DNA from: Oscillospiraceae bacterium
GTDB lineage: Bacteria; Bacillota; Clostridia; Oscillospirales; UBA929
NCBI GenBank assembly: GCA_009782475.1
Contig: WRIZ01000017.1
Coordinates: 1 to 46,293 of the forward strand
Direction: 5' to 3'
Length of the DNA: 46,293 bases
Position 1 is the first letter of the stretch. Every line of letters starts with the position of its first letter. The translations under genes were made by a program, and so were the position numbers. Below the pieces are notes generated by a model. It was not told the DNA's origin. It made no database searches and worked only from the letters and a program-made list of their open reading frames with translations. Shown here one piece after another: positions 19,044 to 43,892 of the stretch.

Positions 19044-19080
19044 TACATTGTTTATGCTTATGTTGAAAGGTGGAAATATC

Positions 19081-19371
19081 GTGGCTGAAACAACAAACCT
19101 AAATATACGGATCGATAAAGAACTCAAAGAACAAGCCGAAGTCTTTTTCAATGAATTGGGTTTGAATATGACTTCGGCGTTCAATGTTTTTGTGAGGCAG
19201 TCGCTGCGGCAAGGGAAAATACCGTTTGAACTCAGCGTCAATACAAATGAAGGCTCCCATCGGCAATATATTCTGCGGGAATTGCAGAAAACGAAGGAGA
19301 CGGCAAAGCAAACGGACGCGGTATGGCACAGTGAAGAGAACGTGCTCAAAATGTTAGAGGAGCCGGTATGA
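19081..19371 (+). CDS. RelB/DinJ-family antitoxin without a toxin partner
   Basis: This 96-aa ribbon-helix-helix antitoxin carries TTNLNIRIDKELKEQAEVFF followed by GLNMTSAFNVFVRQSLRQGK, typical of DinJ. GTG 19081 is chosen because GAAAGGTGG lies 7-15 nt upstream. The stop overlaps an ATG (ATGA at 19368-19371), the usual coupling to a YafQ/RelE toxin. Here that frame closes after 12 codons, through a run of eight T's, and no toxin follows. It is probably a remnant or an orphan repressor expressed from a consensus promoter. Confidence 0.85.
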   Translation: MAETTNLNIRIDKELKEQAEVFFNELGLNMTSAFNVFVRQSLRQGKIPFELSVNTNEGSHRQYILRELQKTKETAKQTDAVWHSEENVLKMLEEPV

Positions 19372-19661: not shown

Positions 19662-19735
19662 GATTTCACGCTCCCTTTGGCGTAGTATGAGCCATTTCGA
19701 CCGATTTATACCAAAAGAAACTGAGGGTGTTCACC

Positions 19736-20626
19736 ATGAAAAAATCCATCCGTAAACTCGCGGCTATCCTTTTGGCGGCCGTTTTTACCGTGTACCAGCT
19801 TCCCGCTGCCGTATCGGCCGATGCTACGGCGTTTCACGATGTAGCCGGGCATTGGGGCGAAGCGCATTTGGTCAAGCTGATCGAAGCTGGAGTCATGATC
19901 GGCGACGGCAACGGAAAGGCCATGCCCGATAGAGAACTTCAAGGCTCTGAAGCGGCTGTCATGCTTGCCAAAATATTTGGTATAGATGTACTTAGCCTTG
20001 ACGAAGCGTTGACGGGGTATTTCAGGACGGGAAGCGTCGTCTCCCGGGAAGAAGCGTTTGTCACCATCCGCAAAGTTTTCCAAATCCCCGACGCGCCTGT
20101 GTCGTTCACCTCGGCTTTTCCTGATTATAACAACGTCTCTTGGGGAGCCGAAGACCATCTCCTCGCAATGGAATACGCCGGGATGATTTCCGGGAAAAAC
20201 GGCAAAATCGCCCCCAAAGACGCCGTCACCCGCGCCGAATTTGCCGCCCTGCTTTCCAAAGGCATTGGGGACTTTATCGACAAGAACGCCGATTTTGCAA
20301 ACGCGGAAATGCGGAATACCCTCATCCGCAAACCCGGTGTGACGGTTGAAAACCTCACCGTCGAACAGCTTACCGTCGCGCGGGGCGCGGGCAGCGGCAG
20401 CATCCTCCTTCAGAACTGCGATATTGGCACCCTCCATATCGGCGGGGGCGGCGAAATACACCTCATCAACACCAACGTGACCGAGCTGATTGTCAACGCC
20501 CCTCAGACAGGGCATGTGCGCATCGTCATTGACGCGGACTCCCTTGTCGAGCGGCTGATTCAAATCTCCGAAACCACGGTTGACGGGGAAGTTTTTGAGC
20601 TGGAAGACAAAACCGGAAATCTTTAG
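19736..20626 (+). CDS. Secreted SLH-domain protein
   Basis: This 296-aa protein has a signal peptide (MKKSIRKLAAILLAAVFTVY, cleaved near AVSADA). SLH repeats follow: FHDVAGHWGEAHLVKLIEAG, then a second more degenerate unit and FPDYNNVSWGAEDHLLAMEY with VTRAEFAALLSKGI. SLH domains bind pyruvylated wall polysaccharide. The C-terminal part of about 95 residues reads as regular short beta strands (VENLTVEQLTV, SILLQNCDIGTLHIGGGGEI), suggesting a small beta solenoid. ATG 19736 follows GAGGG at 19723-19727. It lies upstream of an ECF sigma unit. Confidence 0.85.
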   Translation: MKKSIRKLAAILLAAVFTVYQLPAAVSADATAFHDVAGHWGEAHLVKLIEAGVMIGDGNGKAMPDRELQGSEAAVMLAKIFGIDVLSLDEALTGYFRTGSVVSREEAFVTIRKVFQIPDAPVSFTSAFPDYNNVSWGAEDHLLAMEYAGMISGKNGKIAPKDAVTRAEFAALLSKGIGDFIDKNADFANAEMRNTLIRKPGVTVENLTVEQLTVARGAGSGSILLQNCDIGTLHIGGGGEIHLINTNVTELIVNAPQTGHVRIVIDADSLVERLIQISETTVDGEVFELEDKTGNL

Positions 20627-20690
20627 TGAGCACTTCGGCCTTCTCAAACGTATACAATATAGACCGGTCACAAAATGAGAGGTGCAATCT

Positions 20691-21206
20691 ATGGAGAATG
20701 TGGAATCAATGAAAGCATTCAAAGCCGTTGAGGCGGCGGATGGTATATCGTTTGCCCAAATATACGAAGAAACCATGCCGTCACTCTACCGGCTATGCTA
20801 CGCCTTTGTCAAAAACCGCGCGGATACACAGGATTTGGTTCAAAGCACCTACATCAAGCTGCTGCAAAGCGGCAAGGTTTTTGAAAACGGCGAGCACCGC
20901 AAAGCCTGGCTCATCGTCACCGCCCGCAATCTTTGCAAAAGCCACCTGCGCCACTGGTGGCGGCGCGCCGAACCGCTGGAAGCCGTTGACGGCGCGCTGT
21001 TTGACCCGCCGCCCGAACATAGCGGCGTGACCGAAGCCGTGCTGAACCTCCCGGATAAATACAAAATGCTCATCTTTCTATATTACTACGAAGGTTACGA
21101 CACCAAAGAAATTTCCAACATCCTGCAAAAAAACAGCTCGACCGTCCGGCGTCAGCTGGCCGAAGCGCGAGCCATTTTAGGAGGGGTACTCGATGAAGAA
21201 ATCTGA
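20691..21206 (+). CDS. ECF-type RNA polymerase sigma factor
   Basis: This 171-aa sigma-70 family factor has region 2 with YRLCYAFVKNRADTQDLVQS and TYIKLLQSG, and region 4 with LPDKYKMLIFLYYYEGYDTK followed by EISNILQKNSSTVRRQLAEA. ATG 20691 is chosen because GAGAGG sits 10 nt upstream. It overlaps the next gene by 14 nt. That gene has one membrane helix and an extracytoplasmic domain, so this is likely a sigma/anti-sigma pair responding to an envelope signal. Confidence 0.9.
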   Translation: MENVESMKAFKAVEAADGISFAQIYEETMPSLYRLCYAFVKNRADTQDLVQSTYIKLLQSGKVFENGEHRKAWLIVTARNLCKSHLRHWWRRAEPLEAVDGALFDPPPEHSGVTEAVLNLPDKYKMLIFLYYYEGYDTKEISNILQKNSSTVRRQLAEARAILGGVLDEEI

Positions 21207-22539
21207 ATTGACCGATGCTTTTGAAGTGTTGGGCCCGACCGATAACGAGAAAAAACAGGTATATGAACGCGTATGCGAAATCAAAGTCCGCCGCCGCCCC
21301 AATCTGCGCCCGCTGGGCATCCTCGCGGCAGGCCTCGCCCTTCTGTGCATAACGGCCATCCCGCTGATCGGGACATGGTTCCAGCCGGAAGCCGGCGATC
21401 CCGCAAACCCGGAAAACCCCGGAATTATCGCTCCGGGAACATCGGAGCCGGGCGTGTCACCCAAACCCATCAATACCGGCGACCGCAATCAATTCTCCCT
21501 TCGGGGCGAGGAATCGATCCCGCTTGCGGGCATCGAAAGCATTAAGGTTTTTGGTCTGCATCAGGCTATGACCGTCACTTTTACCGACGCGGAAGAGATG
21601 ACCATCCGCCACTATGATTACGAGGACATTCAGCCATTGGCATGGATCAAAGACGGCAAGTCTATCAAAGCAAACATAGCTGTCCATCAATTTGAGGAAA
21701 GCGGAAGGCCGGAAGGCGAACCCCGTGTGGAGATCGAGATCCCGCGTTCTTACCGCGGCGACGTCAATCTATGCAATGTTGCCGGCAACCTCACCGTTAC
21801 AGGCGAAACCGAATTGGGGACGATCGATCTCGGCTCGGTGAGCGGCGATATAATCGTTTCAGGGTTGAAAGCGGAGTATGCCAATCTCGGAACAGTGAGC
21901 GGCAATATCATGGTGAGCGGTGAATTCGGGAACATGACGGCGGGTTCGGTGAGCGGAACAGTGATCATCAATGGCGAGAAGCAGCAATCGGGATTCTCAG
22001 GGCTTAGGAATTGGAATAATTGGGACTTTGACTTTGGTAATTATGAGTGGCCGTGGGAGGCCGAAGATTGGGAATGGCCGGACTTTGACTTCGATTGGCC
22101 GTGGGATGACAATGACTTTGAGTGGCCGGACTATTCAAACTTCGAATGGCCGGATTTAGACGCAATCCACGAGCAAGCGAGAAAAGACGCGTACGATCAC
22201 CTTGAAAAGGAACTCCGTATAAATTGGTCGGATATCGAAGAGCTGGAAGGATGGACGTTTGATTTATCGGTCGTCAACTGGGATGCTATGGAATGGAAAG
22301 ACGATGAATCCTTCGGGTTCGCGTCCCTGGGCACTGTCACGGACGTCAGAAAAGACGGGCGAATCAGCGTTTCTCATCTGCATAAAGACAACGTGTTTAC
22401 CAAATGGGGCAAGGATACCTTGAGCATTACACCTGAAGAGCAGGAGATCAAAGTTGGAGACATTGTCCTTGTTCTCTTCAAAACGGGTGATTATTTTCTG
22501 ATCGTACCCAACCAAGTTTTGATCGCCCAACCCAAATAA
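21193..22539 (+). CDS. Probable anti-sigma factor with DUF4097-like domain and Trp/Pro/Asp-rich segment
   Basis: This is a 448-aa protein. Residues 1-37 are cytoplasmic and could hold the sigma factor. One membrane helix follows (LGILAAGLALLCITAIPLIG), then a Pro-rich linker. A repetitive beta region, about 190-260 (TIDLGSVSGDIIVSG, ANLGTVSGNIMVSG, NMTAGSVSGTVIING), is like DUF4097 adhesin-type solenoids. Residues about 271-322 are remarkable: roughly a quarter Trp, with repeats such as YEWPWEAEDWEWPDFDFDW. The C-terminal 120 residues are ordinary. The overlap with the sigma gene means translational coupling. Its regulatory role is inferred from context. Confidence 0.75.
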   Translation: MKKSELTDAFEVLGPTDNEKKQVYERVCEIKVRRRPNLRPLGILAAGLALLCITAIPLIGTWFQPEAGDPANPENPGIIAPGTSEPGVSPKPINTGDRNQFSLRGEESIPLAGIESIKVFGLHQAMTVTFTDAEEMTIRHYDYEDIQPLAWIKDGKSIKANIAVHQFEESGRPEGEPRVEIEIPRSYRGDVNLCNVAGNLTVTGETELGTIDLGSVSGDIIVSGLKAEYANLGTVSGNIMVSGEFGNMTAGSVSGTVIINGEKQQSGFSGLRNWNNWDFDFGNYEWPWEAEDWEWPDFDFDWPWDDNDFEWPDYSNFEWPDLDAIHEQARKDAYDHLEKELRINWSDIEELEGWTFDLSVVNWDAMEWKDDESFGFASLGTVTDVRKDGRISVSHLHKDNVFTKWGKDTLSITPEEQEIKVGDIVLVLFKTGDYFLIVPNQVLIAQPK

Positions 22540-22566
22540 GAGTTTCCTCTATCATCTTGTGGACGC

Positions 22567-22597
22567 AAAAACTCCCGCTTCACGGCGGGAGTTTTTG
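22567..22597. terminator. Bidirectional terminator overlapping the end of amrS
   Basis: AAAAACTCCCGC-ttcacg-GCGGGAGTTTTTG. It ends the anti-sigma gene on the plus strand. On the minus strand the stem itself contains the stop and last codons of the radical SAM gene. Confidence 0.8.
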
Positions 22598-23380
22598 TTG
22601 CTGCACATTGCCGATGTAAACATATTTCAGTGATTTACGGGCGATTTCCGCCAAATGGGTCAGCGTTTCAACAGGCGTCGGGGGTTTATCCGCCAGTTGG
22701 TGGCGCGGGAAGAAGCGCGAGAGGTGGAGGGGAATCTCCGGCGACAGGGAAGCCAGCCAGCTTGATAGCCGCTCCATCTCCTCCTCTCCGTCGTTTTCGC
22801 CGGGGACGATGAGGGAAGTGACCTCCGCATGGCAGCGCGGGACGCACAGCTCCACCGTCTGTTTCACCGTCTCCAGGCATCCGCCGAGTTGGCTGTACCA
22901 TCCCGCCGAAAACCCTTTGACGTCGATGTTCATCGCGTCAACAAACGGCAGCAGCCGCAGCAGCGGCTCCCGGTTGACAAAGCCGTTGGTCACCAAGACA
23001 ACCTTCAACCCGCTCTCCCGCAAAAGCGGCGCGGCGTCGAGCAGATACTCTATGTGGATGAGCGGTTCGTTGTAGGTAAACGCCACGCCGAGGTTATCCG
23101 GCAGATTCAACGCCAGTTCAAGCAGCTGTTTTGGAGAGATAAACTCCGACGGCGGGGACTCCTGCGAAATGCCGTGGTTTTGGCAGTAAGCGCAGGTCAT
23201 GTTGCAGCCCGCGCCGCCGACCGACAGGATGGGTCGCCCGGGATAAAAATGCCGGAGCGGCTTTTTTTCGATCGGGTCAACGGCTATGGACGTTATCCGC
23301 CCGTAGCCTTGCCGCGCGCGGCAGAAACCGGCCGGGTCGGCGGTTAGATTGCAGCCTCTAGGGCATATGCCGCACTTCAT
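22580..23380 (-). CDS. amrS: AmmeMemoRadiSam system radical SAM enzyme
   Basis: This 266-aa radical SAM protein has the cluster motif CNMTCAYC (about 59-66), preceded by an extra N-terminal Cys set CGICPRGCNL that may hold a second cluster. FTYNEP and KVVLVTNGFV follow, and the PlfA/YfkA-type end carries LHLSRFFPRHQLADKPPTP. It always travels with MEMO1-like and AMMECR1-like proteins, here fused in the adjacent gene. The reaction is unknown to me. Its ATG overlaps the upstream gene's TGA (ATGA), so the two are coupled. It ends inside a terminator stem. Confidence 0.92.
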   Translation of the reverse strand: MKCGICPRGCNLTADPAGFCRARQGYGRITSIAVDPIEKKPLRHFYPGRPILSVGGAGCNMTCAYCQNHGISQESPPSEFISPKQLLELALNLPDNLGVAFTYNEPLIHIEYLLDAAPLLRESGLKVVLVTNGFVNREPLLRLLPFVDAMNIDVKGFSAGWYSQLGGCLETVKQTVELCVPRCHAEVTSLIVPGENDGEEEMERLSSWLASLSPEIPLHLSRFFPRHQLADKPPTPVETLTHLAEIARKSLKYVYIGNVQQQKLPP

Positions 23381-24660
23381 CGGTGACGGATCACCTCAAA
23401 GCGTTCCAATTCAATCGGTTCGTCCCCGAAAATGCCCGCTTTCTGTTTGGCGATGGCGATCTGCGCTTCCACTGTATCCACACCGTCGAGGTTGGGCAGA
23501 AGCAGCCCGCGCTTGCGCCCGCTTGTGACGATCACGCCGTATCGCTCCACGTCCAGCAAAGCGGGGCTGCTGATCGGTTCGGGCGGGCTTAACACATCGA
23601 CGCTGATGACCAAATCGTCCAGCTCAGACGGCGCAACGGGCGGAAAACGCGGATCGCGCGTGGCCGCGGAAACGCTGTTTTCGATGATTTCCGAAGCGAT
23701 GCTGGCCGTTACCGGGGCAATGGTGCCGATGCACCCGCGCAGCGCGCCGTCTTTCTTGATGGATACGAACACCCCGGCGCGCTTGGCGAGCATTTCCTCC
23801 GGCAGGCTATCGGGAAGGGAGACGGTCTTCCCGGTTGTAACGTAGGAAGCAATGTTCTCACGCGCGAGGCGTACATACGGGCTTTCCCCTGTCTCAAACG
23901 AAGCCGTCAGATACCCCACGCCGAACGGCCCTTCATAGCAGAGGATTTTCCCGCGCGGATTCAGCCCGTCCAATGCCCCGGCCAAGATGACAAGGCTGCG
24001 CAAGCCGCATTCGGCGGCATTCTTAGCCTGTTTGCGGTCAACCGACATCAAACGGACAAAGTCGGCGTTTTTTACGCAATCGCGGATGAATTGATCAAAC
24101 TCCGGCCCTTCGGGCGCGAACCCATAAGGGCCGTCCGGCGTGAGTTTGTGCGACAGATCGCCGCTGGCAATCACCGCGATTTTCCTCCGCAAACCCTGCG
24201 CCGCTCTTTGGACGCATAGGCCGAAGCGGTAATGCTCCGCAAGGGATAAACCGGAGAGCGAGAGGTGCGTGATGGGGATGTCCGTACCCACAAAAGTCAG
24301 CGGTACGGTGACGCCGTGGTCGAGAGCCGGGTTTTCCGCGCCCTCAAACCCGGCCGGAAGACCTTCCCGCCGCGCTTCCTCACCGATAGCCCCGGCCAGC
24401 TCCGAATCGTACCTAACGGACATGGAAACCTGTTTCGCCCCGAAACGGGAAAAATCGCCGGACGCCCCTTTCCCCGGCGCGATGTGGAAAGTATCCTCAT
24501 AGCAAACGCTGTGCGGCGAGATGACGATTAACGTATCGGGTCGGTCGTGTTTGATCTCTTCGGCAACCGTTTCACAGGCGCGCCGTGTGCCGGGGATTTC
24601 ATTACCCTGCCCGACGCCGGGGATAAGCAGGGGCGGATGGGGCATAAGGTATGCTTTCAT
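23377..24660 (-). CDS. AmmeMemoRadiSam system fusion protein (MEMO1-like AmrB + AMMECR1-like AmrA)
   Basis: This 427-aa fusion has the MEMO/LigB-type dioxygenase-like domain at about residues 1-255 (LMPHPPLLIPGVG, VISPHSVCYED, NPALDHGVTVPLTFVG, VIASGDLSHKLTPDGPYGF). The AMMECR1 domain follows at about 270-427 (GVFVSIKKDGALRGCIGTI, SAATRDPRFPPV, RGLLLPNLDGVDTVEAQIAI). The LRGCIG core is fully conserved. The two His of the MEMO half could bind a metal. I chose ATG 24660; ATG 24663 directly before is equally possible (GGGTGAG upstream). The gene is divergent from queA. Confidence 0.9.
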   Translation of the reverse strand: MKAYLMPHPPLLIPGVGQGNEIPGTRRACETVAEEIKHDRPDTLIVISPHSVCYEDTFHIAPGKGASGDFSRFGAKQVSMSVRYDSELAGAIGEEARREGLPAGFEGAENPALDHGVTVPLTFVGTDIPITHLSLSGLSLAEHYRFGLCVQRAAQGLRRKIAVIASGDLSHKLTPDGPYGFAPEGPEFDQFIRDCVKNADFVRLMSVDRKQAKNAAECGLRSLVILAGALDGLNPRGKILCYEGPFGVGYLTASFETGESPYVRLARENIASYVTTGKTVSLPDSLPEEMLAKRAGVFVSIKKDGALRGCIGTIAPVTASIASEIIENSVSAATRDPRFPPVAPSELDDLVISVDVLSPPEPISSPALLDVERYGVIVTSGRKRGLLLPNLDGVDTVEAQIAIAKQKAGIFGDEPIELERFEVIRHR

Positions 24661-25931: not shown

Positions 25932-25960
25932 TTGACAACCCCTACGCAGTAGGGTATAAT
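25932..25960 (+). promoter_or_regulatory. Promoter of the HigBA-like unit with embedded operator
   Basis: TTGACA (25932-25937), a 17-bp spacer and TATAAT (25955-25960). The spacer contains a perfect inverted repeat CCCTAC-gca-GTAGGG (25940-25954), placed where a bound antitoxin would block polymerase. This fits autorepression. Confidence 0.85.
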
Positions 25961-25982
25961 GAAGTCAGAAGAGAGGTGCGGG

Positions 25983-26321
25983 ATGGAGCGCGAGTTTGTA
26001 CTCTTGCATGAGTTTGAGCGTAAATGGTCAAAGCTCGGCTTTGACGACGATGACCTCGGAAGATTGCAAGAGGAAATACGGAAAGACCCGAAGCTGGGAG
26101 CTGTAATACCCGGTACAGGAGGAGTCCGAAAAATGCGCTTCGCGTTTGAGGACCGTGGAAAACGCGGGGGTACACGGGTTCTATATGTTGACCTCATCAT
26201 TGCGGAAACGGTTATACTGCTCGGCGCATACGCAAAGAATGAACAGGAAACATTGTTGATGGCGGAAAAGCAAGCCTTGAAATCGATGGCGGAACGAATT
26301 ACGGGTCAATACCATAACTGA
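25983..26321 (+). CDS. RelE/HigB-type toxin
   Basis: This 112-aa protein is of the RelE superfamily, HigB-like group with the toxin gene first. It reads FVLLHEFERKWSKLGFDDDD, then LQEEIRKDPKLGAVIPGTGG, VRKMRFAFEDRGKRGGTRVL and YAKNEQETL. The Arg/Lys-rich GVRKMRF...GKRGGTRV block and YAKNEQ match the mRNA-cleaving branch. The start follows GAGAGGTGCGGG. An XRE-type antitoxin gene starts 15 nt downstream. The unit lies between two copies of the queA end. Confidence 0.88.
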   Translation: MEREFVLLHEFERKWSKLGFDDDDLGRLQEEIRKDPKLGAVIPGTGGVRKMRFAFEDRGKRGGTRVLYVDLIIAETVILLGAYAKNEQETLLMAEKQALKSMAERITGQYHN

Positions 26322-26336
26322 CGGAGGTGTGTTACC

Positions 26337-26672
26337 ATGGGTGAGTATTACGATAGCCTAAAACGTGGGCTTGAAGAGGCGTTAGAATACACAAAGGGAA
26401 ACGTGAAGCTGCGGTCATTTAGGGTCAAGTTTGAACCTGTCCCCGAATACGCGCCGGAGGATATAAAGAGAATACGGACAGATTCACGCATGACGCAAGC
26501 TGCATTTGCCGGATACCTCGGCGTTACGACTAAAGCGGTTGAAGCATGGGAGCGCGGGCGTAATAAGCCAACCGGCCCAGCCAGACGTTTGATGTCGATG
26601 GCGGCGGAAAACCCGGAGGTTCCGACAAAGTATTATTCTGTCACAGAGAGCTATGGTTTTCGCGGAGAGTAG
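26337..26672 (+). CDS. HTH-type antitoxin, XRE family (HigA-like)
   Basis: This 111-aa protein has an N-terminal toxin-neutralising arm (MGEYYDSLKRGLEEALEYTK) and a C-terminal Cro/C1 helix-turn-helix, MTQAAFAGYLGVTTKAVEAW with ERGRNKPTGPARRL. It should inhibit the preceding RelE-type protein and repress the operon through the palindrome in the promoter spacer. RBS GGAGG is 9 nt before the ATG. A weak terminator hairpin (26678-26698) follows. Confidence 0.9.
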   Translation: MGEYYDSLKRGLEEALEYTKGNVKLRSFRVKFEPVPEYAPEDIKRIRTDSRMTQAAFAGYLGVTTKAVEAWERGRNKPTGPARRLMSMAAENPEVPTKYYSVTESYGFRGE

Positions 26673-40301: not shown

Positions 40302-43300
40302 ATGCCGGATCAAGTCAATGGGTTCTTCAATCAAAAACTCGCAAGCGATGAGCTAGGCATCGCGTATTGGGTCATGGACTTTGTTGACGGAGATTTCAAT
40401 CACCCGGACAATCAGTTTACCGTGTCGGACGAATGCCGCCGGATGCTCGGCTTCGCCGATGAACATGACCTGCCCAATCGTGTTTCCAGCTTAAGCAGCC
40501 AGCTCCATCCTGATGAAAAGGAGTGGGTGATCAAGGCCATCGAGGATCATGTCAGCGACCGCACCGGGCAGACCCCTTATGAAACCGAATATCGGATCAG
40601 GATGAAAAGCGGGGAGTACCGTTATTTCCACGCCTTCGGCTCCACCAAGAGAGACGAAGACGGCGTGCCGCTTAGGCTTACCGTGGCCTTGAAGGACATA
40701 ACCGATTACATGGTGATACAGGAGAAGGAAAGGGAAGCGGAGGAGTTTATCCATCTCCTGATGGACGCCAACCCCCTTGTCGCCAACCTATGGAACAGGG
40801 ACATCCAAAATACCTATACCAACGCGGCCGCGGTCAACCTGTTCGACCTGTCCAGCAAACAGGAGTATATTGATAATTTTCACAAACTGTCCCCGGAATT
40901 CCAGCCCAACGGGGAAAATTCAGTCGATTTGGCCATAAAGAAGGTTAAGGAAGCGTTTGAAACAGGGTATTGCCAGTTTGAATGGATGCACCAAAAGTTA
41001 AACGGGGAACCGGTTCCCGGCGAGGTCACCCTTGTCCGCGTCGCGTATAAAGACGATTATCTTGTCGCCGGATATACCCGCGATCTGCGCAAAGAGATCG
41101 AAATGCAAAAAATGATTGCCGACGAACAGGCCAAGAGCGAAGCGTTGATGCTGCACCAGCTGGAAGAAGCGGAGTCCCGGAAAGCGCTTGATACGATAAC
41201 ACACGTATTGAGCGGGTTGGACGCCCTTATCTACGTAACCGACCCGGAGACAAACGAAATCATTTTTATCAACGATAACATGATCGAATATTACGGCGTA
41301 GACAAAGACTGCGTCGGCAAACTCTGCTACAAGGTGTTCCATAAGGATAAAGACGCGCAGTGTGATTTCTGCCCCTGCCTCAAACTCGACAAAGACCCGG
41401 ATAAAGTGATCTATTGGGAGGAATACCGCCCTGAGCACGATAAGACCCACCTCCATGCCGAGCGGTATATCTCATGGCCGGACGGGAAAACCGTCCATCT
41501 CCGGCATTCTGTGGACATCACCGACATCCGCAACGCCACCAAGGAACTTGACAAGAAGCTCGTGCAGCAAAACCTGATAACGCAGGTATCCCAAATCTTT
41601 TTACCCGAAATCCTGTATACCGATAAGTTACACTCCCTGATCGCGGAAGCACTGAATATGCTCGGAGAGTTTATGGACGTCGCTCATATTGTGCTCTATG
41701 TGCTGGACTTAGACCGGCTGGTGTTTACCTGCCGCAATCAATGGATATCCCCGGACATTGAGTATCCAAACCTGATCGGCAAGGATTATCCGGCGAATAT
41801 CAGTGAAATGTCTTTGAAGTTTTTCGACAGGATGAAAAACAGAGAAGCCAGCTACATGTCATCCGACGAACCGATTGTCAGGGAAATCATGGGGGCGTAT
41901 AGGAAGCATTTCGAGAACTACCTATGCACAACCATTTACGTAGGGGACGATTTATACGGGATGCTGGACTTCTCATGGAAAAATGACGGACGCAAATGGA
42001 GCAAGGACGATCTCAACCTTGTCGAATTTTTAACCAATGTCTTAACTGTTTCCTTCCATCGGTCTATGGTAGCGCAGCAGGTGATCAAGTCAAAAGAACT
42101 GGCCGAAGAGGGCAACCGTTCCAAGAGCATCTTCTTAGCCAGTATGAGCCATGAGATACGCACCCCGCTGAACGCCATTTTGGGCATTGCCGAGATACAG
42201 CTTATGGAGAGCAATCTCCCGCCCGATCTGAACGACGCGTTTTATAAAATATATGAATCGGGCGACCTCCTTCTCAACATCATCAACGACATTCTCGATC
42301 ACTCGAAGATCGAAGCAGGGAAACTGGAGATCCTGCCCGTCCGGTACGATATGCCAAGCCTGATCAACGACACCATACAGCTAATGCGCCTGCGGTATGA
42401 GAGCAAACCGCTCAGCTTCAAGCTGCATGTCGATGAAAACACGCCGCTCGACCTGTTCGGCGATGAGCTGCGTATCAAGCAGATATTAAGCAACCTGCTT
42501 TCCAACGCGTTCAAATATACCGACGACGGCACCGTGACCATGTCGGTCTCCTTCGAGCCGGGCCGGGATAAGGAGGATGTAACGATCGTCTTTACCGTGA
42601 GCGACACCGGGCAGGGCATGACAGAAGACCAAGTAGACAGGCTGTTTGACGAGTACACGCGCTTTAACCTGCAAACCAACCGTTCGACCGTCGGCACAGG
42701 TTTGGGTATGAACATCACAAAACGTTTTGTAGAGCTGATGAAAGGCGACATAACGGTTCAATCGGAAGCGGGCAAGGGTTCGGTTTTCACCGTCCGTTTG
42801 CCGCAGCAACGCATCGGGGGTGCCGTATGCGGCCCGGAACTGGTTCAAAAATTGCAAAAAAACAGCTTGAGCAGCACCTTCAAAACCCACAAAACGCAAA
42901 TCAGCCGCGAATACATGCCTTACGGAAACGTTTTGGTCGTTGACGATGTGGAAAGCAACCTCTATGTCGCCAAAGGGCTGCTTTTGGCTTACGGGCTGAA
43001 AATCGAAACGGTGGAAAGCGGATTTGAAGCCATTGACAGGGTGAAAAACGGCAAGTGTTATGACATCATCTTTATGGATCATATGATGCCGCATATGGAC
43101 GGCATGGAAGCGGCGAAAATCATACGCGGCATGGGTTACGATCAACCCATTGTCGCGCTGACTGCCAACGCCGTGGCAGGGCAGGCGGAATACTTTATCG
43201 CCAATGGGTTTGACGGATTTTTATCCAAACCGATCGACCTGCGCGAACTGAACACCATCCTCAACGATTTGATACGGAGCAAACAGCCGCCCGAAGTCAT

Positions 43301-43892
43301 CAAAGAGGCGCGGGGAAAGAAAAAAGAACTGGCCGCCCTGGCAAGAAAACAGGAACGCCCCTCCGGCGAAATCGAAAAGGCATTTTTACGGGACGCGGAG
43401 AAAACCGCCGCCGTGCTCAGCGAACTGTGCGACACATTCAAAACCGGCGAGGAAGCGGATTTACAGTTGTTTGTCGTCAGCGTTCACGGCATCAAAAACG
43501 CGCTCACCAATGTCGGCGAGCACGAGCTTTCGTCAGACGCGCTGAAATTAGAACTGGCGGGGCGGGACGGAGACATAGACAGCCTGCGGGATAAAACTCC
43601 GGCCTTTTTGCTCAAACTGCGGACGCTCATATTCAATATGAAACCGGCCGCGGGACAAGGGGACGGCCCGGCGGACGTCGGCGAGGATGTTGAACTGCTG
43701 CGGGAAAAGATGGCGCAGATTCATTCAGCCTGCGACGTCTATGATAAAAAGACGGCGAAAGCCGCGCTGGACGAATTGAAGCAAAAGCAATGGTCGGGTC
43801 AAACGGCGGGAAAGATAGACGCCATTGCCGTCCACCTCCTGCACGGCACCTTCAAAGAAGCGATGGGGATCGCCGAAGAGCTGCTAAAATAG
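40302..43892 (+). CDS. Hybrid sensor histidine kinase (PAS-PAS-PAS-GAF-HisKA-HATPase-REC-Hpt)
   Basis: This 1196-aa kinase has no membrane segment. It has three PAS-like domains (about 10-140, 145-270, 295-410; the third has a Cys-rich CDFCPC patch) and a GAF-like domain (about 430-600). HisKA has His617 in SHEIRTPLNAILG. HATPase has NLLSNAFKYTDDGT, DTGQGM and GTGLGMNI. REC has Asp926 in IIFMDHMMPHMDGME, and a C-terminal Hpt has His1062 in VSVHGIKNALTNVGEHELSS. It is a full phosphorelay, probably feeding the HD-GYP protein just upstream. RBS TAGAGGAG. Its stop overlaps the phosphotransferase remnant. Confidence 0.93.
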   Translation: MPDQVNGFFNQKLASDELGIAYWVMDFVDGDFNHPDNQFTVSDECRRMLGFADEHDLPNRVSSLSSQLHPDEKEWVIKAIEDHVSDRTGQTPYETEYRIRMKSGEYRYFHAFGSTKRDEDGVPLRLTVALKDITDYMVIQEKEREAEEFIHLLMDANPLVANLWNRDIQNTYTNAAAVNLFDLSSKQEYIDNFHKLSPEFQPNGENSVDLAIKKVKEAFETGYCQFEWMHQKLNGEPVPGEVTLVRVAYKDDYLVAGYTRDLRKEIEMQKMIADEQAKSEALMLHQLEEAESRKALDTITHVLSGLDALIYVTDPETNEIIFINDNMIEYYGVDKDCVGKLCYKVFHKDKDAQCDFCPCLKLDKDPDKVIYWEEYRPEHDKTHLHAERYISWPDGKTVHLRHSVDITDIRNATKELDKKLVQQNLITQVSQIFLPEILYTDKLHSLIAEALNMLGEFMDVAHIVLYVLDLDRLVFTCRNQWISPDIEYPNLIGKDYPANISEMSLKFFDRMKNREASYMSSDEPIVREIMGAYRKHFENYLCTTIYVGDDLYGMLDFSWKNDGRKWSKDDLNLVEFLTNVLTVSFHRSMVAQQVIKSKELAEEGNRSKSIFLASMSHEIRTPLNAILGIAEIQLMESNLPPDLNDAFYKIYESGDLLLNIINDILDHSKIEAGKLEILPVRYDMPSLINDTIQLMRLRYESKPLSFKLHVDENTPLDLFGDELRIKQILSNLLSNAFKYTDDGTVTMSVSFEPGRDKEDVTIVFTVSDTGQGMTEDQVDRLFDEYTRFNLQTNRSTVGTGLGMNITKRFVELMKGDITVQSEAGKGSVFTVRLPQQRIGGAVCGPELVQKLQKNSLSSTFKTHKTQISREYMPYGNVLVVDDVESNLYVAKGLLLAYGLKIETVESGFEAIDRVKNGKCYDIIFMDHMMPHMDGMEAAKIIRGMGYDQPIVALTANAVAGQAEYFIANGFDGFLSKPIDLRELNTILNDLIRSKQPPEVIKEARGKKKELAALARKQERPSGEIEKAFLRDAEKTAAVLSELCDTFKTGEEADLQLFVVSVHGIKNALTNVGEHELSSDALKLELAGRDGDIDSLRDKTPAFLLKLRTLIFNMKPAAGQGDGPADVGEDVELLREKMAQIHSACDVYDKKTAKAALDELKQKQWSGQTAGKIDAIAVHLLHGTFKEAMGIAEELLK

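Follow-up and report, generated by a model that had tools for sequence, protein, structure and literature searches.

The sigma factor and anti-sigma factor genes at positions 20691-22539 on balance probably form an autoregulated ECF switch, in which the linker that follows the Toastrack domain of the anti-sigma protein has been expanded in this lineage into an array of tryptophan, proline, and acidic residues. The expanded linker would tune the contacts of the ectodomain and would be dispensable for the switch itself. The window, which is the whole stretch of 46,293 nucleotides analysed here, is contig 17 of a 2.1-Mb genome in 49 contigs. The source organism is probably a gut Clostridia bacterium of termites.

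The sigma factor gene and its predicted promoter

The first gene of the pair (20691..21206, + strand) encodes a protein of 171 aa that matches Pfam families Sigma70_r2 (E 1.6e-13, 50.7 bits; cut-off 24) and Sigma70_r4_2 (E 1e-10, 41.5 bits; cut-off 25.7). Regions 2 and 4 of a sigma factor are thus both present above the Pfam cut-offs in a protein of about 170 aa, the size and composition by which we recognize the ECF class. Paralogues are encoded in the same genome on contig C2 (65% identity) and contig C46 (41%). The preliminary description had named the two genes an ECF sigma/anti-sigma pair. That assignment is upheld by the Pfam sigma regions and, for the second gene, by its position, single transmembrane (TM) span, and family architecture, and the coordinates and reading frames given for both genes are correct.

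By eye, a motif that consists of GACAT or GAGCA, 17 bases, and GTAT recurs 5' of related sigma genes. A matrix for this motif was trained on 11 relatives, with both sites from the genome under study kept out. The predicted ECF-type autoregulatory promoter (GAGCA-N17-GTATA; 20627..20656, + strand) scores 16.1 bits by this matrix and is the top site when both strands of the window are scanned; the runner-up scores 10.4. The sigma promoter of the C2 paralogue scores 14.5 bits by the same relatives-only matrix. Among shuffled upstream regions (n = 500), 0.2% reached the observed score for the site at 20627, and 0.0% did so for the paralogue. Of a set of 80 relatives' loci, 79 were scored, and 52 of these have an upstream region above the 99% shuffle level; some of the loci share a genome with a training site.

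The consensus of the two own sites was also used to scan the whole genome with up to three mismatches allowed. Only those two sites and one site with three mismatches were recovered, and no further target promoters of the sigma factor were found by this motif in its own genome. A family motif 5' of the sigma gene, by which we recognize an autoregulated operon, is present at 20627-20656, and its occurrence here and at the C2 site suggests that its own promoter is the likeliest target of the sigma factor, and that of the paralogue a possible second one. Which promoters the ECF factor reads had been posed as a question at the outset; to this we can add a family-type promoter 5' of the sigma gene that is the sole good match in the window and, together with the promoter of the paralogue, the sole good match in the genome.

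The anti-sigma protein and its tryptophan array

The second gene (21193..22539, + strand) overlaps the end of the sigma gene by 14 bases and encodes a predicted transmembrane anti-sigma factor of 448 aa (P0001). Its hydropathy reaches at least 1.5 in one region only, in 19-residue windows starting at aa 37-46, and the TM span is placed at about aa 41-62 (21313..21378). The N-terminal part that precedes the span (aa 1-40, 21193..21312) has a net charge of +3, and the remainder of the protein after the span is acidic. Residues 1-40 align without gaps to the paralogue, as does the sequence through the TM span, and relatives start alike; we infer that this presumed cytoplasmic part binds the sigma factor. 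A gene that adjoins and overlaps a sigma gene and encodes a short cytoplasmic N-terminus and one TM span has the layout of a transmembrane anti-sigma factor, and P0001 is predicted to inhibit the sigma factor encoded at 20691-21206.

Because there is one TM span, the domains that follow it would lie outside if the N-terminus binds the sigma factor. The Toastrack domain and the array are therefore predicted to be on the outer side of the membrane, on the basis of a basic N-terminus followed by a single hydrophobic span. The extracytoplasmic location first proposed for the tryptophan-rich segment stands as a prediction on the same grounds. This topology conflicts with one paper, which holds Toastrack to be intracellular (PMC11237479).

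The Toastrack (DUF4097) domain extends over about aa 103-262 (21499..21978, + strand), as judged from a Pfam match at aa 174-255 and from alignments with all three Toastracks that the C2 paralogue contains. The match to DUF4097 (PF13349) scores 27.6 bits against a gathering cut-off of 22.9 and covers profile positions 63-146 of 247 only. Beyond the array, the C-terminal region (aa 326-448, 22168..22536) is modeled with low confidence as a helix followed by what may be a small beta domain. No family in Pfam or NCBIfam matched this region above cut-off, and no relative of it was found in its own genome. A PDB sequence search with P0001 gave a single weak match (E 0.37, aa 381-438) that was set aside.

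Two single-sequence AlphaFold models have mean pLDDT values of 47 and 53, and a Foldseek comparison of the first with the PDB produced nothing at or below E 0.001; therefore, no conclusion about fold is drawn from the models. In the region where a Toastrack would be expected to form a right-handed beta-helix, blocks at aa 181-250 have pLDDT values of 64-78 in the single-sequence model, and the array has values of mostly 50 or lower in a model that is poor overall. With 84 of 247 Toastrack positions covered by Pfam and a mean pLDDT of 47, the fold of the ectodomain is a tentative assignment, and we describe the array as probably exposed and disordered.

The array itself (aa 274-322, 22012..22158, + strand) comes immediately behind the final strand of the Toastrack. 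The 51 residues at aa 272-322 include 10 Trp, 5 Pro, 17 Asp or Glu, 8 Phe or Tyr, and 1 basic residue, and aa 270-325 carry a net charge of -17. Each 50-residue window that starts at aa 270-274 contains 10 Trp; when the whole protein was shuffled 10,000 times, this number was reached once. Across all open frames of the window, the runner-up among 50-residue stretches contains 7 Trp and is not acidic. Five units of the form [F/Y/W][D/E]WP[D/W] begin at aa 284, 293, 300, 309, and 317, with 7-9 residues from start to start; in 20,000 rounds of shuffling aa 270-325, five units never arose (mean 0.04). Thus, the stretch of about 50 residues with EWP and DWP mixed with Asp and Glu that the preliminary description noticed is real and has five units, although its Trp content is about 20% (10/51) and not roughly a quarter. 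Pfam yielded no family over aa 270-325 at E values up to 1, and the segment does not fit the profile of a known Trp-repeat binding family, of which we take the choline-binding repeats to be an example.

No tandem DNA repeat was found under the array, and codons vary between units (TTC/TTT, GAG/GAA, GAC/GAT). The order of the units has been kept despite these differing codons, which suggests that the chemistry of the segment has been held. That the array is an artefact, produced by a wrong frame, by the antisense strand of another gene, or by chimeric assembly, is a reading that we discount almost entirely. Other matches to a WP pattern were indeed of such a sort, as described below. However, the array lies within a single open frame of 448 codons that has its own start signal and well-formed flanking regions, and no competing ORF of at least 80 aa runs over it. 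Moreover, G+C at the three codon positions is 0.50/0.38/0.59 in the segment, compared with 0.56/0.39/0.61 in the rest of the gene.

Relatives, paralogues, and genomic surroundings

When 394 genomes of the order were searched with the sigma protein, 96 had a match at E 1e-25 or better. Forty sigma neighbourhoods were taken, and 80 further loci came from a scan of named genomes, partly the same ones. An ORF lies directly 3' of the related sigma gene at 76 of 80 loci (the others are L167, L184, L208, and L209), and most of these ORFs begin, by eye, with a similar short motif and then a TM span. In a separate survey of downstream ORFs, five sigma rows had no ORF (L078, L082, L104, L106, and one of two L093 rows), and the ORFs for L087, L094 (6 Trp per 50 residues), L103, and the other L093 row are distant and doubtful.

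Seventy-one proteins, representing the three pairs of the genome under study and 68 of the 76 downstream ORFs, were scanned with Pfam; the ORFs left out are mostly near-duplicates (L151, L154, L156, L164, L175, L177, L190, and L192). The outer domains detected are DUF4179 in six proteins, SBP_bac_8 in three, DUF4097 in two, DUF4367 in two, and Serpin in one. DUF4097 occurs only in P0001 and its C2 paralogue, and P0001 does not match DUF4179 (PF13786). Because outer domains differ among related loci, ectodomains appear to have been swapped. By these comparisons, the sigma/anti-sigma pair is a standard Clostridia module whose ectodomain changes fast. The serpin domain (E 3.2e-55), which is an odd outer part, is in a protein that occupies the anti-sigma position of a related locus.

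The preliminary description envisaged a repeat whose copy number could be compared among homologues, but the array is present in none that we found. Tail searches of 394 genomes of the order and of 368 genomes of the phylum each returned only the genome under study, a pattern scan of genome contigs for P0001 gave four pattern matches of which none was confirmed, and no array was found in plasmids. None of the 76 ORFs 3' of related sigma genes has a Trp array (the top count is 5 Trp per 50 residues), nor does any of 23 other Toastrack proteins; these sets and the genomes searched overlap one another. When the smaller of the aromatic and acidic counts per 50 residues is taken, P0001 reaches 18 and the 76 downstream ORFs reach at most 13. 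The [DE]WP triplet occurs in one of these 76 ORFs, and the full unit in none. Among the 23 other Toastrack proteins the triplet occurs in two, the C2 paralogue and a protein of the same family (L012) in which a short PDWPA stretch adjoins the membrane span.

At the DNA level, a WP-array pattern matched 11 of the 394 genomes of the order, including the one under study, and a reversed control pattern also matched several. Loci in 7 of the 10 other genomes were inspected for Trp density, and three had at least 8 Trp per 50 residues. The loci in other genomes were rejected as arrays, as none is acidic-aromatic in a sizeable ORF. One (L118) consists of collagen-like repeats in a frame of 68 residues, and another is a probable antisense His-rich stretch, with gene identity judged by eye.

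A literature search among open-licence papers yielded no report of a Trp-rich anti-sigma ectodomain. Because it was found in no related protein, the array looks like a young, species-specific addition. As far as sequence comparison can tell, it does not serve this class of sigma factors as a conserved sensor.

The most informative relative is the paralogous ECF/anti-sigma pair on contig 2 (L008 3851-6638), which has a matching promoter. The alignment of P0001 with the 760-aa anti-sigma protein of this pair starts at the first residue, crosses the TM span, and extends to the Toastrack. The paralogous protein contains three Toastracks, has at most 2 Trp per 50 residues and no array, and differs from P0001 in lacking a C-terminal domain of the same kind. 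The linker after its second Toastrack, where the array begins in P0001, reads KTQEKEWPFNN and includes one EWP; 0.002 [DE]WP triplets are expected in the 66 linker residues of this paralogue from its own composition. We read this linker, with its one triplet, tentatively as the likely seed of the array. Because the C2 pair keeps the sigma factor, the N-terminus and TM span, the Toastrack, and the promoter without an array, the array is probably not essential for such regulation and would be at most an added input. Absence of the segment where the same regulation is kept had been named at the outset as evidence against a sensory role. The C2 pair supplies such a case in part; as a paralogue, however, it may respond to a different signal.

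Possible, though we think it doubtful, is that the array is a passive, drifting low-complexity spacer that grew by local duplication and was kept as harmless. Its position exactly at a domain boundary, its occurrence in one lineage only, the single EWP in the linker of the paralogue, and the PDWPA stretch in the same-family Toastrack protein all fit this explanation. However, a drifting spacer does not readily account for five ordered units that have differing codons and yet apparently retain their chemistry, and Trp is a costly residue.

The opposite explanation, which was raised in the preliminary description, is that the array is the actual sensor. Trp side chains that the acidic residues keep exposed would, together with them, capture a cationic ligand, such as an antimicrobial peptide of the host or a competitor, or lysozyme, and thereby trigger release of the sigma factor. 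The strong negative charge combined with 10 Trp and the persistence of aromatic and acidic chemistry across differing codons are consistent with this role. There is also precedent for a receptor role of an anti-sigma ectodomain, since RsiV is described as itself the receptor of lysozyme, a cationic protein (PMC4183432). On the other hand, a paralogous pair with the same promoter type has no array, the array is kept in no homologue found, and P0001 has no RsiV domain (DUF3298 or DUF4163), as Pfam at E values up to 1 gave only DUF4097 and a sub-cut-off SH3_15. We consider a sensor of this kind unlikely.

The contig 2 pair is followed by a gene for a 675-aa Beta_propel (PF09826) protein, and the pair and this gene together span L008 3851-8774. 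A third, more distant ECF pair of the genome is on contig 46 (L072 1561-3319; 41% identity), and its 429-aa downstream protein matches no Pfam family. A genome of the same genus (G002; L087, reverse strand 727-1479) encodes the first half of a related sigma factor (62% identity) fused to an apparent Toastrack end, in a frame that looks like the relic, by internal deletion, of a decayed pair.

Directly upstream of the sigma promoter is a gene for an SLH-domain protein (19727-20626, + strand; SLH E 5e-13) with a possible beta-helical tail, noted by eye. Its location permits the very unlikely reading that the array binds an envelope glycan or S-layer element with the SLH protein as partner, which would couple the switch to the state of the wall or S-layer, and sugar-binding sites typically contain Trp with Asp or Glu. 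However, the sigma/anti-sigma pair has its own promoter right after the SLH stop codon, so that the SLH gene and the pair need not be one unit. The C2 locus is instead adjoined by the beta-propeller gene, and no carbohydrate-binding family was matched in Pfam or NCBIfam.

Downstream, a terminator-type hairpin (22565..22598, no strand assigned) lies between the anti-sigma gene and a convergent radical SAM gene. It has a 15-pair stem, a free energy of -24.4 kcal/mol, and a z of -5.5, and it was missed by a simple terminator scan, perhaps because of a T run inside the stem. At 22580-24648 (- strand), the radical SAM protein adjoins a LigB-AMMECR1 fusion protein. The radical SAM gene is present in 4 of 18 family genomes, including that under study (E 1e-40), and neither a sigma factor nor a Toastrack is beside it on the stretches examined in L215 and L216. 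Elsewhere, the window encodes a RelB-type antitoxin (19048-19371, + strand), a RelE-type toxin followed by a gene that by eye resembles an HTH regulator (25959-26672, + strand), and a 1196-aa hybrid histidine kinase with PAS, GAF, and receiver domains (40302-43892, + strand).

Proposed switch and relation to known systems

In ECF systems, the sigma factor is bound by the N-terminus of the anti-sigma factor and is released, often by proteolysis, in response to a signal from outside. By analogy of family position, the N-terminus of P0001 would hold the sigma factor at the membrane until a change in the outer part sets it free, probably with regulated proteolysis as the last step. The genome carries genes for site-2-type proteases (Peptidase_M50, best E 2.4e-51); however, M50 proteases are present in all 14 control genomes, and thus their presence says little. 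Freed sigma factor would then read its own promoter at 20627, where the motif match is observed and activity is presumed. The ectodomain would consist of a Toastrack beta-helix and a small C-terminal domain, joined by the array, a linker that would have grown in this lineage from a precursor resembling the single-EWP linker of the paralogue.

In the autoregulated switch with an expanded linker that we favor, the exposed acidic-aromatic strand would add contacts with a cationic peptide or protein, a glycan, or the envelope surface, and so tune what the switch meets. We infer exposure, binding, and tuning of the ectodomain by the array. Its chemistry is the ground for proposing that it may add contacts, and a passive spacer fits nearly as well. 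In eukaryotic activation domains, acidic residues keep aromatic residues exposed. By analogy, an array that is negative, aromatic, and unfolded could be apt to catch cationic amphipathic ligands. Quite unlikely is a more specific proposal, in which the array is a new disordered acidic Trp-Pro sensory strand, recently expanded from a Toastrack linker, that uses charge and cation-pi contacts to catch cationic amphipathic peptides or proteins encountered in an insect gut, and whose affinity depends on the number of repeats.

If the array binds a ligand, an anti-sigma factor would have gained a new input quickly through linker expansion and not through a domain swap. If it is only a spacer, it is an ordinary lineage-specific low-complexity insert. 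The two pairs in this genome, alike in sigma factor and promoter and unlike in ectodomain, provide a natural comparison.

Among known systems, the P0001 pair has gene order, gene overlap, cytoplasmic N-terminus, one TM span, and promoter motif in common with the Clostridia type of ECF factor with a single-span anti-sigma factor. It differs in that other members of this type carry other outer domains, whereas P0001 carries a Toastrack and the Trp array. With the Toastrack/DUF4097 envelope-stress proteins (LiaG, LiaF, and those of PadR-HAAS operons) it shares the Toastrack domain, and Toastrack genes have been described alongside transcription regulators, among them a sigma factor linked in an operon (PMC11237479). 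P0001 is nevertheless distinct from LiaG, as it scores 28.7 bits against the LiaG equivalog model (NF049997; cut-off 285). In addition, its Toastrack is predicted to be outside the cell and part of an anti-sigma factor. Finally, RsiV offers a possible working model, in which an anti-sigma ectodomain receives a cationic protein.
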